Part shown: piece by piece, positions 14,735 to 19,438 of the stretch
How the letters are laid out: the number at the start of each line of letters is the position of its first letter
Numbering within the stretch: position 1 is the stretch's first letter
NCBI RefSeq assembly: GCF_014197445.1
Contig: NZ_JACIFO010000001.1
Coordinates: 1-64,000, forward strand
Length of the DNA stretch: 64,000 bases
Reading direction: 5' to 3'
Origin: Mesonia hippocampi
GTDB taxonomy: Bacteria; Bacteroidota; Bacteroidia; Flavobacteriales; Flavobacteriaceae
Program-made: the position numbers and the translations under genes
Notes under the pieces: model-generated
Seen by the model: only the letters and a program-made list of their open reading frames with translations
Database searches by the model: none
Told to the model about the DNA's origin: nothing

Positions 14735-15229
14735 GTGAGAAAGCATATTTTTTTATACCTATTTTTATTTGCTGTTTTATACATTGTTTTTCAGTATACC
14801 AATGCCTCTAAAGGCTTAGAACGCCAAAGTAAAAAGATAGAGAAGCTAAAAGAGCAAGTAAATGACCTGGAAACAGAAAAAGCAGCTTTGCAATTAAAAA
14901 TAGAGGATATGAGCGGATTTAGCTTAGCAACCAACGATAAAGCTCGTGCTTTTTATGAGGATTTAGGCTATAATATTACTGCCATAGAAAAAACAATAGA
15001 AAGCAAGATAATAGGCAACAATAAAATTGATGCAGATAATGCTTTAATTCCATATACAGGGATGGAAGGGCATATCCGCGTAAACCGAATAAAAGTACTT
15101 AACCATAAATGGGTACTGGTTGAATTTACCGATAGTGTTTATTGGGGTGAAGCTATTATTGCTTACGTGTTTGATAAAGAAGGTAAACTTGCGTTAGATA
15201 CTAAAGAAGCTTTTTTATACCCGCGTTAA
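14735..15229 (+). CDS. Membrane-anchored protein with short coiled coil, unknown function
   Basis: A 164-residue protein starting at GTG. Residues 4-21 form one membrane anchor (IFLYLFLFAVLYIVFQYT). A heptad-rich coiled coil follows (about 30-60), then a compact domain that ends VYWGEAIIAYVFDKEG. I recognise only that similar proteins occur in Flavobacteriaceae. It is probably co-transcribed with the metallohydrolase 11 bases upstream. Its stop codon overlaps the convergent esterase gene in a TTAA palindrome (15226-15229). Confidence 0.75.
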   Translation: MRKHIFLYLFLFAVLYIVFQYTNASKGLERQSKKIEKLKEQVNDLETEKAALQLKIEDMSGFSLATNDKARAFYEDLGYNITAIEKTIESKIIGNNKIDADNALIPYTGMEGHIRVNRIKVLNHKWVLVEFTDSVYWGEAIIAYVFDKEGKLALDTKEAFLYPR

Positions 15230-15885
15230 GCCGTTTTTAGCAACCAATTTTTTAAATCGGAAAAATTCTGAGGGCAAACCCCATGTCCTACAGGATATTC
15301 ATGGTATTCGTGAGTAATGTTAAGCGCTGTTAGAAAAGGCTTTATTTTACGAGCCCAATCTACAGGAATTACCTGGTCTACACTTCCGTGAGAAGCAAAA
15401 ATAGCAAGGTTTTTGTACGAATTATCTCTGAATGATTTATTAAAAATTTCACTATCTATATATCCGCTTAAAGCAATAACACGTTGTACTTTTTGTGGAG
15501 CAGAAAGCGCAGCAGCATAACTCAAGATAGCCCCTTGGCTAAAACCTAAAAGCGTGACTTTATTGGCATCGGCATGGTAATGTTCTACCACTTCGTCTAT
15601 AAATTTTAGAATACGTTTTCTAGAGGCGATGGCTTGCTCGTTATTGGTAAATTTATTTTGGTCGGCATCAAAATTTATTTCATACCACGCATTTCCGTAA
15701 GGCATTAAGCTTAGTGGAGCTTTGGCAGAAACAATAAGGTATTCTTCTGGCAGTTCTGATGCGAAGGAAAATAAATCATTTTCATTACTTCCATACCCGT
15801 GTAGCATTATTATTACTGGTGCTTTGGTAGTTGTATTCTTGGAAGGTTTTACGAGGTGCTCGAGTGTTAAATTTTTAGTTGTCAT
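15226..15885 (-). CDS. Phospholipase/carboxylesterase-type alpha/beta hydrolase
   Basis: A 219-residue esterase of the Abhydrolase_2 (acyl-protein thioesterase-like) group. The oxyanion-hole segment IIMLHGYGSNENDL comes first, the nucleophile is Ser116 in GFSQG, and the acid and histidine fall in GSVDQVIPVDW and GHGVCPQ. There is no signal peptide, so it is cytoplasmic. Its ATG shares a base with the upstream gene's stop (TAATG at 15883-15887), which suggests translational coupling. Last gene of the operon that starts at 19438. Confidence 0.88.
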   Translation of the reverse strand: MTTKNLTLEHLVKPSKNTTTKAPVIIMLHGYGSNENDLFSFASELPEEYLIVSAKAPLSLMPYGNAWYEINFDADQNKFTNNEQAIASRKRILKFIDEVVEHYHADANKVTLLGFSQGAILSYAAALSAPQKVQRVIALSGYIDSEIFNKSFRDNSYKNLAIFASHGSVDQVIPVDWARKIKPFLTALNITHEYHEYPVGHGVCPQNFSDLKNWLLKTA

Positions 15886-16226
15886 TAGCCAATAGTTTTA
15901 AACCATTTTTGAAAGTATTCTCCTAACAGCGGAACAATTGTTTTGCGGTTTTGTAAAGCTCCTGTAAACCCATAAGCCCATAGCACAAAAGAAAAAATCC
16001 AAAAAGGAATGGTGATAAGCCAAGAGTCAAAACCGCTGATAAGTGCTAATACTAAAAAGTAAACAATATGTATTCCTATAGCTTGGCGGATATGGAAACT
16101 GGCAAATGTGTTTTTAGTTTCGCTATTCATCGATATTGCAATAATAGTTCCTACAAAAGTGAGGTAAGCAGCTATGGCTGTTGATTTTCCTTCTTTTATT
16201 TGTTGTTGCTGAGGTTGCTGCGTCAT
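15885..16226 (-). CDS. Small Tic20/DUF4870-like membrane protein
   Basis: A 113-residue protein with a glutamine-rich cytoplasmic start (TQQPQQQQIKEGK) and three likely membrane helices: about 17-33, 50-67 and 72-92. The motif FHIRQAIGIHI is typical of the DUF4870/Tic20-like group. The molecular role of the family is not known to me. It lies one base from the dihydroorotase-like gene and overlaps the esterase gene, so it is co-translated with both. Confidence 0.78.
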   Translation of the reverse strand: MTQQPQQQQIKEGKSTAIAAYLTFVGTIIAISMNSETKNTFASFHIRQAIGIHIVYFLVLALISGFDSWLITIPFWIFSFVLWAYGFTGALQNRKTIVPLLGEYFQKWFKTIG

Positions 16227-16227
16227 G

Positions 16228-17481
16228 TTAATTTAGCGTAAGGCTGTTGTTTGCAAAAATACCGATTGCTTTTCCTGTAAGTTTTTCATCTTTAAAGATG
16301 GTATTTTTGGAGGATGATAAGATGTTTTCTGGGGTAAAGGTGTAATTTTCGGTAGGAGAAAATAAACTGATTTCTGCTTTTTCACCTACTTCTAATTTTG
16401 GTTCGGTTATGCCAAAACGAGTACGTCCTTTAGTAAGAAGGTCTATTGCTTTTTCGGTTCCTACAAGTTTATTTAGAATTCCAAAAGCACATTCTAGACC
16501 AATACTTCCGTAATTGGCTTGTTCAAATTCTACCTTTTTTTCTTCGATAGTAGTAGGGAAGTGGTCTGTGGTAACCATATCTATAGTACCATCTTTTATT
16601 CCTGCTAAAAGCGCAAGCCTATCTTCTTCTGTACGTAAAGGCGGTAAAATTTTATAGGCGCTATCAAAACCAATTATTTCTTTATCTGTATAATATAGGT
16701 TAGCAATAGCCACACTGCAACTTACATCAAGTCCTTCTAATTTTGCTTGCTTGATAAGGTTAACCGAAGAAGCGGTAGATATGGTAGGAATGTGTAATTT
16801 CCCACCAGTGTATTTTAAAATATATAAATCGCGTGCGATTTGTAATTCTTCCGCAAGGTTAGGAATTCCCGATAAACCAGCGTTGGTACTGCTAATGTTT
16901 TCGTTTACACAAGCCGTACGAGCAATGGCATTTTCTTGCGGGAAAGATTGTATTAGCCCGTTAAAACCTTGTGTGTATTGTAAAGCTAACTTTAAAAGGT
17001 TAGGATTTTGTATGGGTTGTTTATAATCGTAAAAAGAAATAGCACCATGTTGCTGCATGTCGTATAATTCGGCTAAATCTTTACCAGCTCCATTTTTAGT
17101 TAAATTTCCAATAGGAAATAATTCTACCCCAAATAAATGCGTTTTGTTTTTAAGATAACTTATACTCGACCCCGTATCTGGAGCAGGATGGCTGGTTGCA
17201 TTTAAACCGATGCTTGTATAACCGCTTTTTGCCGCAGTTTGCATCCCATTGTAAAGTGTTTCTCGGTCTTCATAGCCAGGTTCTCCAAACGATACACTGC
17301 TATCTATCCAACCTAACGAGAGGTGTAAATTTTGGTAGGTTACTTCCTGAGTGTTTTCTGTTAAAGAAATATTTTTTTCTATAGCCTTAATTGTTCCGTT
17401 TTCTATAAGAATATCAAGGGTTTTGTTATGATATTTACTTGATGGGGCGATGATGGTTGCCGATTTTATTAAAATCTTCAA
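16228..17481 (-). CDS. Dihydroorotase homologue, probably catalytically inactive (PyrC')
   Basis: An amidohydrolase-fold protein of 417 residues, close to class I dihydroorotases in layout. The metal-binding HxH after the first barrel strand is replaced by Ser62-Val-Ser64 (IDSSVSFGEPGYED instead of DxHVHLREPG). The carbamylated lysine region reads GAISFYDY, and the later histidine sites read IQSFPQEN and IPTIST. Only the aspartate region TTDHFP (about 305-308) is kept. It should not bind the usual two zinc ions. Inactive dihydroorotases elsewhere serve as structural partners of aspartate transcarbamoylase; that role here is inference. Confidence 0.85.
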   Translation of the reverse strand: MKILIKSATIIAPSSKYHNKTLDILIENGTIKAIEKNISLTENTQEVTYQNLHLSLGWIDSSVSFGEPGYEDRETLYNGMQTAAKSGYTSIGLNATSHPAPDTGSSISYLKNKTHLFGVELFPIGNLTKNGAGKDLAELYDMQQHGAISFYDYKQPIQNPNLLKLALQYTQGFNGLIQSFPQENAIARTACVNENISSTNAGLSGIPNLAEELQIARDLYILKYTGGKLHIPTISTASSVNLIKQAKLEGLDVSCSVAIANLYYTDKEIIGFDSAYKILPPLRTEEDRLALLAGIKDGTIDMVTTDHFPTTIEEKKVEFEQANYGSIGLECAFGILNKLVGTEKAIDLLTKGRTRFGITEPKLEVGEKAEISLFSPTENYTFTPENILSSSKNTIFKDEKLTGKAIGIFANNSLTLN

Positions 17482-17509: not shown

Positions 17510-19438
17510 TTATTTCAGCAATTTTAGCAAAGCTACTTCTGCTAGTAAAAATATTAGGGCAAAGATAATAAACCATTTCCAAATGTTGTTTATTTTATCA
17601 GCATTTACCAACACATTTGCAAATGTGTTTATCGAAGTGTTTAGTTCGGTGTTTTTAAGAGTGGTGTAAGTTAAGTTACTTTCTGTTCGGTCGTAGTTAA
17701 AGCTAAGCTTAGCGATGTCCTGCTGGTCTAACTTAACCTTATATATACCTGCTTCTTGCGGTAAGTCTTGGGTGGTAACTACTATTTTATCGTTGTGTTT
17801 TTGTTGTAGCGGGATAAATGTTGCTGTATTTAACGCTAAGCTGAGTACGTTCTCGGGATTACTGTTTTCTGGCGGAGTAATTAAGATATTATTTTGCTTA
17901 TTAATAAGGTAGTAAAGTTGTGGTTGTATTGTACTTGTTTTTGCCATATTATAAAAAACTGGAACAATTAATGGCGATTGTGTAAAATTGCTATTTTCTG
18001 GAGTTAACGCACTGCTAAAAACATAAACCTTATTTGTGGAGCTGCTTAAAAAAGCTTGATGATTTTGGTACGAAAGAATTTTTTCTGATGGATTTTTAAA
18101 GGTATAGGAATGTTTAACCGTTGGATAATCAAAATTTTCTATGGTTTTGCTAAAGACATCTTGAAAAATAGGATGCGAAAAATTAAGTTGAGTAACTTTT
18201 ACATCGTTCAACTCTTGGAGTGCGTATGGGCTATGTTGTAAACCTGAAAGCAGTAGGTTGTAGCTGTCTTTTTTTATGTTACTAGAAGGAATAATACATA
18301 AAGCCCCTTTTTTATCTTTATGAGTAACAAGTAATTGTGCTAAGCTTGGTGGTATTTTGTTTAGGTTGTTTAGGATAATGAAATTAGCTTCGGAAAGTTC
18401 TTTGTAATTTACATTTTTCTCAGTGTATGTTTTTACTGAAAATTCTTCGAGGTTGGCATAAATTCGTTTTAAAAAAACAGGATCTTTATTGCTAATAATG
18501 GCTATTTTTATAGATTGTTTTTTTGGGGTATTAAAATAGATGCTGTTATCGTAGGTTAGGCCATTATCTTCTAGGCTAATTTTACCATTCTCAACGCCAT
18601 TTTCGGGTAAGCTTATGCTAAGTAGTTGTTCTTTTTTTGTAGCAAAACTAAAACTGTTTTTAGCAAAAGGGGTATCACCATCATAAAGGCTTAGGTGGTA
18701 TAATTGCTTGTCTAATTGGTTGCTGCTTAATTTAATGTTAAGTTGATGGTTACCTTCTTTAAAATAAACAGTATCTATCGCAATATTATGTGTGTTTTCG
18801 GGCTTTTTAACAATATAATGTACCTGATAAAGGCTATCGGTTACTGGGATGTTTTTTGTTATGTTTTCTTGGAAATCTGAAACCGCCACAAAATGCTTTT
18901 CGGTATTACTATTTTTAGAAAATAAGGTGGTTGCTTTTAGAAAGGCGTTATTTATAGCTGTTTTTTTTGAAGAGAAGCTAGTTTGTAAAAGTTCTTCTTT
19001 TATTTTTTTTAAGTTGGTGTTTTTATAAGTATTGCTATTGGTAATAAGGCTAAGTGGGTAATCTTCGGGGAAACTTTGTAATAACTCTTGAATGCTCTCT
19101 TCTAAAAGAGAGCTGCTTTTTCCTTGTAATTGCATGCTAAAAGAGTTGTCTAGGTATATTACAAGTTCCTTTTCTTTTTTAGAGGTTAGCTCGGTTACCA
19201 ACGGGAAATACGGCTGAGCAAAAGCAATAATTATACAGGCTAAAGCGGCTAAACGTGTACATAAAACAAGCCATTTTTTTAATTGCCTACTTTTACGGCT
19301 TTGGGTATTTACCTTTTTTAAAAACGCAACATTACTAAAAATTTCTTTTTTAAATTTTCGTAATTGAAATAAGTGGATAAGTACTGGAATTAGCAGTAAA
19401 AAAAGCGCATAGAGAACCTTAGGGTATAAAAACTGCAT
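17510..19438 (-). CDS. BatA-type von Willebrand factor A membrane protein
   Basis: A 642-residue inner-membrane protein. The N-terminus is the BatA_N hairpin: membrane helices at about 5-22 and 57-75 around a basic loop (LRKFKKEIFSNVAFLKK). A von Willebrand A domain follows, with an intact MIDAS start Asp97-Asn-Ser99-Phe-Ser101. A long periplasmic beta-rich middle leads to a final helix at about 620-638. Similar proteins occur in the Bacteroidota aerotolerance group, but no MoxR ATPase or other bat gene is adjacent. First gene of a four-gene operon; 28 bases separate it from the dihydroorotase-like gene. Confidence 0.87.
   Translation of the reverse strand: MQFLYPKVLYALFLLLIPVLIHLFQLRKFKKEIFSNVAFLKKVNTQSRKSRQLKKWLVLCTRLAALACIIIAFAQPYFPLVTELTSKKEKELVIYLDNSFSMQLQGKSSSLLEESIQELLQSFPEDYPLSLITNSNTYKNTNLKKIKEELLQTSFSSKKTAINNAFLKATTLFSKNSNTEKHFVAVSDFQENITKNIPVTDSLYQVHYIVKKPENTHNIAIDTVYFKEGNHQLNIKLSSNQLDKQLYHLSLYDGDTPFAKNSFSFATKKEQLLSISLPENGVENGKISLEDNGLTYDNSIYFNTPKKQSIKIAIISNKDPVFLKRIYANLEEFSVKTYTEKNVNYKELSEANFIILNNLNKIPPSLAQLLVTHKDKKGALCIIPSSNIKKDSYNLLLSGLQHSPYALQELNDVKVTQLNFSHPIFQDVFSKTIENFDYPTVKHSYTFKNPSEKILSYQNHQAFLSSSTNKVYVFSSALTPENSNFTQSPLIVPVFYNMAKTSTIQPQLYYLINKQNNILITPPENSNPENVLSLALNTATFIPLQQKHNDKIVVTTQDLPQEAGIYKVKLDQQDIAKLSFNYDRTESNLTYTTLKNTELNTSINTFANVLVNADKINNIWKWFIIFALIFLLAEVALLKLLK

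Follow-up and report, generated by a model that had tools for sequence, protein, structure and literature searches.

What does a dihydroorotase (DHO) homologue do once its metal site has been lost, and why is it encoded beside a membrane-protein gene and not beside a pyrimidine gene? The question was raised by a gene within a window of 64,000 nucleotides of Mesonia hippocampi DNA. The gene product, referred to here as pseudo-dihydroorotase (pDHO), belongs to a compact BatA / pDHO / small protein / esterase group whose successive gaps are 28, 1 and -1 bases (Table 1). The first-pass annotation had called the small downstream protein a DUF4870 protein, a name that lacks support, as PF09685 matched only at E=0.99 and no named family scored above a cut-off; a homologue of this protein is present at 34 of 35 family-level loci. 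The nearest named relatives of pDHO are from Mesonia, with 62 and 61% identity (Flavobacteriaceae). Genomes described below as belonging to the same class are those of what we take to be the Bacteroidia in the GTDB scheme; the NCBI taxonomy places Mesonia under Flavobacteriia.

Table 1. Genes of the pDHO group and codons of pDHO that correspond to metal-ligand positions of Aquifex aeolicus DHO, in window coordinates.
Feature	Position	Strand	Remarks
Pseudo-dihydroorotase (pDHO)	16228..17481	minus	417 aa; begins with TTG; substitutions at five of six DHO metal-ligand positions
BatA N-terminal-domain membrane protein	17510..19438	minus	PF07584 / TIGR02226; directly upstream of pDHO, 28-base gap
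Small protein	15885..16226	minus	Downstream of pDHO, 1-base gap; neighbour only
Phospholipase/carboxylesterase-like alpha/beta hydrolase	15226..15885	minus	PF02230 1.3e-32; neighbour only
Ser62 codon	17296..17298	minus	Aquifex His61 position (first residue of HxH); from ORF numbering
Ser64 codon	17290..17292	minus	Aquifex His63 position; from ORF numbering
Tyr153 codon	17023..17025	minus	Aquifex Asp153 position (bridging ligand); from ORF numbering
Thr233 codon	16783..16785	minus	Aquifex His232 position; from ORF numbering
Asp306 codon	16564..16566	minus	Aquifex Asp305 position, sole ligand kept; from ORF numbering

The relationship of pDHO to known proteins was examined using phmmer, which gave type-I DHO chains of A. 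aeolicus as the top PDB matches (E about 1e-60; 1.3e-60 for 3d6n) over pDHO residues 1–408. The best matches include 3d6n and 4bjh, in which the DHO chain was crystallised with aspartate transcarbamoylase (ATCase). The NCBIfam model TIGR00857 scored pDHO at 239.5 bits, below the curated cut-off of 279.05; the NCBIfam scan returned sub-threshold models only, with no named family over its cut-off, and the Pfam scan gave no family at E<=0.001, PF01948 included. An AlphaFold monomer model built from seven sequences had a mean pLDDT of 66.5 and a pTM of 0.70, and was poor at residues 125–206 (pLDDT under 50). When this model was searched using Foldseek the best match was 3d6n_A, with an E-value of 5e-27, a TM score of 0.70 and an rmsd of 8.7. 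Judged by these matches pDHO is homologous to type-I dihydroorotases over its full length, and the DHO of the A. aeolicus class A1 DHO-ATCase dodecamer (3d6n, 4bjh) is the closest solved relative by both sequence and predicted fold. Two of four further pseudo-DHOs scanned with TIGR00857 passed its cut-off. The dead relatives L042 and L043 scored 370.9 and 352.7 bits, so that automatic annotation would call them dihydroorotase, and L064 (265.2) and L036 (266.7) fell below.

The alpha metal site of Aquifex DHO is described as consisting of His61, His63, Asp153 and, more weakly, Asp305, with His180 and His232 at the beta-site position (PMC3880350). The motifs quoted in the first-pass annotation, Ser62-Val-Ser64, GAISFYDY, IQSFPQEN, IPTIST and TTDHFP, are all present as stated, and the loss of the metal site that it proposed is real, with the aspartate region surviving as D306. 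Its count of four lost sites out of five needs correction to five of six, and the carbamylated-lysine site that it placed at GAISFYDY does not apply, since the bridging ligand in this subfamily is Asp153 and there is no carbamylated lysine. The aspartate of GAISFYDY (FYDY) aligns with Aquifex D152, a non-ligand, and at least 90% of pseudo-DHOs likewise have an aspartate at this position. Aquifex H180 corresponds to S179 of pDHO in the pairwise alignment or to F180 using MAFFT, and at the positions of R65 and H309, which are conserved in intact DHOs, pDHO has G66 and T310. Keeping only the final aspartate of the ligand set, pDHO would not be expected to be an active dihydroorotase.

The remainder of the genome was searched for pyrimidine genes. 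A second dihydroorotase with an intact HxH, the search for which the first-pass annotation had recommended, was found in part: the only other dihydroorotase found (L002, contig C6, 1345–2685) scored 743 bits with NF006688 against a cut-off of 535, identifying a PRK09236-type PyrC, and its first motif is DDQVHFREPG, in which QVH, shared with the solved P. gingivalis structure 2gwn, stands in place of HVH, with the rest of the site intact. The QxH motif is also found in the PyrC of two f2 genomes; in relatives from f11 and f97 the motif is HVH. L002 may bind either one metal or two. The recommended search for pyrB gave one gene, on contig C7, over the TIGR00670 cut-off and directly after pyrR (NF003549, 180 bits, cut-off 138). 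The pDHO gene is located on contig C1 and is not adjacent to it. No pyrI (PF01948) was found in the genome, of which the assembly is 99.5% complete, in a search that matched 7 of 14 control genomes. With a separate dihydroorotase and pyrB present and no pyrI found, the genome has the wiring of a class A2 ATCase except for the adjacency of pDHO and pyrB. The PyrB itself resembles class C enzymes (41%) as much as it does Aquifex (40%). A PyrB interface signature of pDHO association was considered and rejected, as only 5 columns were shared by pDHO-associated PyrBs and Aquifex to the exclusion of class B/C PyrBs, compared to 9 in a matched class C control.

Taken with the distribution described below, these properties make it probable that pDHO, encoded away from pyrB, serves a class A2-like ATCase as a dihydroorotase-like subunit without catalytic activity. 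In Pseudomonas a separate active dihydroorotase is present in the same genome as the pseudo-DHO, PyrC', and the genes are arranged as pyrBC', with the pseudo-DHO gene adjacent to pyrB; this adjacency is not essential to the definition of class A2. A separate dihydroorotase is likewise present in the M. hippocampi genome in the form of L002, which is predicted to be active. The pDHO gene, unlike that of Pseudomonas, is part of the BatA group and away from pyrB, and its product would form the corresponding complex by analogy; PyrC' is likened to pDHO by description and not by direct sequence comparison. The PyrC' of the Pseudomonas class A2 ATCase is described as an inactive type-I DHO homologue with PyrB as its partner, and the P. 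aeruginosa catalytic chain as a monomer that gains activity only when the pseudo-DHO assembles with it into a dodecamer (PMC7053772). The Aquifex complex is described as two ATCase trimers held by three DHO dimers (PMC7053772). Wild-type Aquifex DHO differs from pDHO in that it is active within this complex and that its six ligand positions are complete. The defective DHO domain of fungal Ura2/CAD-like proteins is described in the same source as an inactive DHO beside an active ATCase, as proposed here, differing in that the fungal DHO is a domain of one long chain while pDHO is a free protein (PMC7053772).

From these comparisons we infer a physical complex of pDHO with PyrB, a need of PyrB for pDHO and the following order of events. 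The ancestor would have had a class A1-like ATCase-DHO pair, with pyrB beside an intact type-I DHO gene. The DHO of this pair would have lost catalysis near the base of the class, with the separate dihydroorotase (PyrC, PRK09236 type) making dihydroorotate. The dead DHO would then have been kept because PyrB still needs a structural partner, presumably in the form of dimers that join catalytic trimers and make them stable, in the manner of the Aquifex and Pseudomonas complexes.

The distribution of pDHO and PyrB was measured across 197 same-class genomes, using cut-offs that were set after the tables had been seen (E<=1e-80 to the M. hippocampi PyrB; E<=1e-20 for pDHO homologues); the best matches in genomes without a homologue stay above 1e-15. 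A PyrB of the same kind was found in 180 genomes, and 172 of these have a pDHO homologue. Among the 17 genomes with another PyrB (12) or none (5) a homologue was found in one, G406. Fisher's exact test gave p = 9e-17 for this co-distribution with kinship ignored, the association resting on few independent changes. PyrI is present in nine of the 197 genomes and the homologue in none of the nine. The homologue is therefore co-distributed with one kind of PyrB and exclusive of PyrI. The first-pass annotation had suggested a scaffold or regulator, and it is the ATCase-partner branch of that idea which is favoured by the co-distribution with PyrB, by the exclusion of PyrI and by the adjacency to pyrB outside the class described below. 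The homologues total 173, of which 36 were read at the active site, giving 35 dead and one intact (G072); the other 137 were taken as dead by similarity alone, and intact DHOs from outside the class give similar E-values.

The eight genomes with this kind of PyrB and no homologue within the E<=1e-20 cut-off consist of seven genomes of family f82, whose PyrB is A-like, and G342. A profile search of four f82 genomes revealed a long, extremely degenerate homologue in G456 and G422, a 381-aa ORF in G355 and a fragment in G327, the active sites of the last two being unread. G342 (300 contigs) has an A-like PyrB and no pseudo-DHO was found, while G406 (360 contigs) has a pseudo-DHO and no PyrB was found. 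In G310 (230 contigs) a degenerate pseudo-DHO (L131/L143) lies beside BatA, PyrC is present and no PyrB was found, which indicates either an assembly gap or a pseudo-DHO outliving its partner. G324 and G353 are without a match to PyrB, pseudo-DHO or PyrC-like proteins, and in G166, a congener of G072, a pseudo-DHO is lacking and the sole ATCase-like match is sub-threshold. Together with G310 and G406 these make up the five genomes without a PyrB match. The PyrB of G317, G339, G412 and G421 was recovered in pieces only.

A tree of 55 PyrBs was calculated, including three of the seven f82 genomes and three of six f2 genomes. The pDHO-associated PyrBs, together with those of the three f82 genomes, form one group (96/85), and this joins eight PyrBs from outside the class, seven of them beside an intact DHO, at 97/93. 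The PyrBs of G072, G342 and Aquifex lie outside on long branches (88/84). Three PyrI-associated PyrBs, two from the same class and one from outside it, form a group (97/83) that joins G366 and is separated from the rest at 100/99. The PyrBs of three pDHO-less genomes of the same order join the class C enzymes of B. subtilis and S. aureus at 99/98, a join that was flagged by the tree program as long branches meeting. The fragmented genome G366 (L162) has a PyrI-like PyrB, with no PyrI found and no pseudo-DHO, and its congeners carry the pDHO-associated kind of PyrB and the homologue; this is either a switch of ATCase type or a binning error. In the small-genome family f82 the pseudo-DHOs (L148 in G456, L150 in G422) are extremely degenerate and PyrB is on a long branch with 1.6 changes per column, making covariation in rate between the two proteins possible.

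The age of the loss was examined by reading the ligand positions of homologues at increasing distance. All 35 family-level proteins, pDHO included, retain the final aspartate only; these comprise 30 from the same family and five named proteins from Mesonia, Haloflavibacter, Salegentibacter and Aquimarina. A copy was detected in all 30 same-family genomes, and one is presumed to exist in Flavobacterium johnsoniae. A first batch of same-class proteins was taken from 28 of the 37 same-class genomes compared, omitting G076, G111, G178, G194 and G273, for which no position was listed, and G166, G230 and G238, which gave no strong match; the ninth genome outside the batch, G072, was added later. All 28 proteins retain between 0 and 2 of the six ligand positions, and the full set is found in none of the 63 first-batch family and class proteins. 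In L041, from a Bacteroidetes MAG, HVH is kept and nothing else of the ligand set. The ligand set is also absent from 13 further same-class proteins (one partial), so that 77 of the 78 same-class homologues read are without it. The sole exception, the DHO of G072 (L114, contig C23), is intact and directly beside pyrB in a class A1-like arrangement.

Type-I DHOs from other classes of Bacteroidota (L070–L081) belong to the same family as pDHO by alignment and tree, and their PyrBs form one clade with the PyrBs described here. Unlike pDHO, all 12 have the six ligand positions and the ten catalytic or ligand positions checked intact, and seven (L071, L075–L078, L080, L081) are directly beside pyrB. 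The 12 loci represent 12 of about 223 genomes from outside the class, one per family among the strong matches listed, and are therefore not a random sample. The 717-aa ORF at L079 was considered as a PyrB-DHO fusion and rejected, as residues 291–708 match DHO and none match PyrB. In the flanks (mostly 1.5–5 kb) of the 63 first-batch family and class pDHO loci no pyrB was seen.

A total of 123 alignment columns are conserved in 12 or all 13 of the intact DHOs compared. The set of 32 pseudo-DHOs preserves 47 of these columns at a level of at least 90% and has lost 18, including H61, H63, R65, D153, G154, H180 and H232, with 58 in between; the replacements at the ligand positions vary from family to family. 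An unrooted DHO tree calculated by a quick method, with f82 sequences left out, split the included pseudo-DHOs from the intact DHOs, Aquifex and PyrC with an SH-aLRT of 99. These sequence comparisons fit a single loss of catalysis near the base of the class, after which the emptied pocket drifted while the fold was preserved.

The pocket could alternatively have been put to a new use, the vacated site binding a ligand and pDHO acting as an allosteric regulatory subunit that does the job of PyrI. The regulatory subunit of class B ATCases is unrelated to pDHO and would occupy an analogous place in the ATCase assembly, and the two never occur together in the 197 genomes. Residues E138, D141, P181 and L291 (numbering of the window pDHO) are found in 30–31 of 32 pseudo-DHOs compared to 0–5 of 13 intact DHOs, and the positions that once held ligands are near-uniform in the family (Ser; mostly Ser or Cys; Gly; Asp-Tyr; Phe/Tyr; Thr). 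Between families the pocket residues vary, the His61 position being occupied by Phe, Asn, Gly or Ser, and this variation speaks against a single conserved ligand. The nucleotide inhibition of the P. aeruginosa enzyme is ascribed in PMC7053772 to destabilisation of the complex, not to allostery. An allosteric role is considered unlikely. A broader scenario, in which ATCase across most of the Bacteroidia is held together by a dead DHO whose emptied pocket senses a metabolite, and lineages that went over to PyrI-type or class C enzymes have lost the DHO, is speculative and rather doubtful; if true, a single bacterial class would have seen three designs of ATCase control succeed each other.

The immediate neighbourhood might suggest a different function, in which pDHO would work with the BatA / small protein / esterase group in the cell envelope or in stress, unrelated to pyrimidines. 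BatA adjoins the pDHO gene at all 35 family-level loci and was detected beside it at 15 of the 29 loci L041–L069, the gaps within the group are short, and pDHO-less genomes of f2 and f11 have BatA matches that are missing or weak. Against this, no BatA was detected at the other 14 of the 29 loci, seven of the 12 intact relatives outside the class are beside pyrB instead, and BatA homologues are present in G166 and G324, both of which lack a pseudo-DHO and a PyrB over the cut-off. As BatA homologues outlast PyrB and pseudo-DHO in these two genomes, a BatA partnership was rejected as the main explanation and the operon context to which the first-pass annotation had attached meaning is probably incidental. 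BatA is an old neighbour of pDHO and not a better tracker of it, in what is a small test, and a role in the BatA group is regarded as improbable.

It is still less probable that pDHO is an amidohydrolase with altered catalysis that uses a different substrate, whether with one metal or with none. In favour of this are the retention of D306 and of the barrel and the lack of any named Pfam or NCBIfam family scoring over its cut-off, but five of the six ligand positions are lost and the replacements differ by family, while a new class-wide active site would be expected to be uniform.

Constraint on the protein was measured in 12 gene pairs, 11 of pseudo-DHOs and one of intact DHOs. A simple counting method gave dN/dS values of 0.038–0.103 in nine of the 11 pseudo-DHO pairs, with dS over 1 in four of the nine; three pairs were saturated, including the intact pair, so that the values stand without an active-enzyme control. 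The range of the nine measurable pairs shows purifying selection and indicates that pDHO is not decaying. Pseudo-DHO matches in G335, G361, G332 and G457 were flagged with one in-frame stop each, where the match may run past the true end or the copy may be broken. That pDHO is a decaying pseudogene or a still-active dihydroorotase can practically be dismissed despite its high divergence (51–57% identity within the family compared to 81–87% for PyrB in 11 of those genomes), given a dN/dS of 0.04–0.10, no stop inside the match in 30 of 30 family genomes, a loss common to the class and the disappearance of the catalytic ligands.

Pseudo-DHO subunits of ATCase have precedents in Pseudomonas and in fungi, where the subunit takes the form of a domain. 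The new features of the pseudo-DHO described here are the breadth of the lineage, a gene unlinked to pyrB and the fact that it is not found together with PyrI; no report of a Bacteroidota pseudo-DHO was found in the open-access literature searched. If pDHO is indeed the non-catalytic ATCase subunit proposed, the commonest ATCase design in the class, with the homologue present in 173 of 197 genomes, would be a two-protein complex, and its second subunit, to which sequence models give the name dihydroorotase, could not be one. Two dihydroorotases would then be wrongly read into such genomes by metabolic models and in gene-essentiality work, and the unlinked gene of the BatA group would be a pyrimidine gene with a conditionally essential role. 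The class as a whole amounts to a natural experiment, since its ATCases are found with a pseudo-DHO, with PyrI, or with neither.
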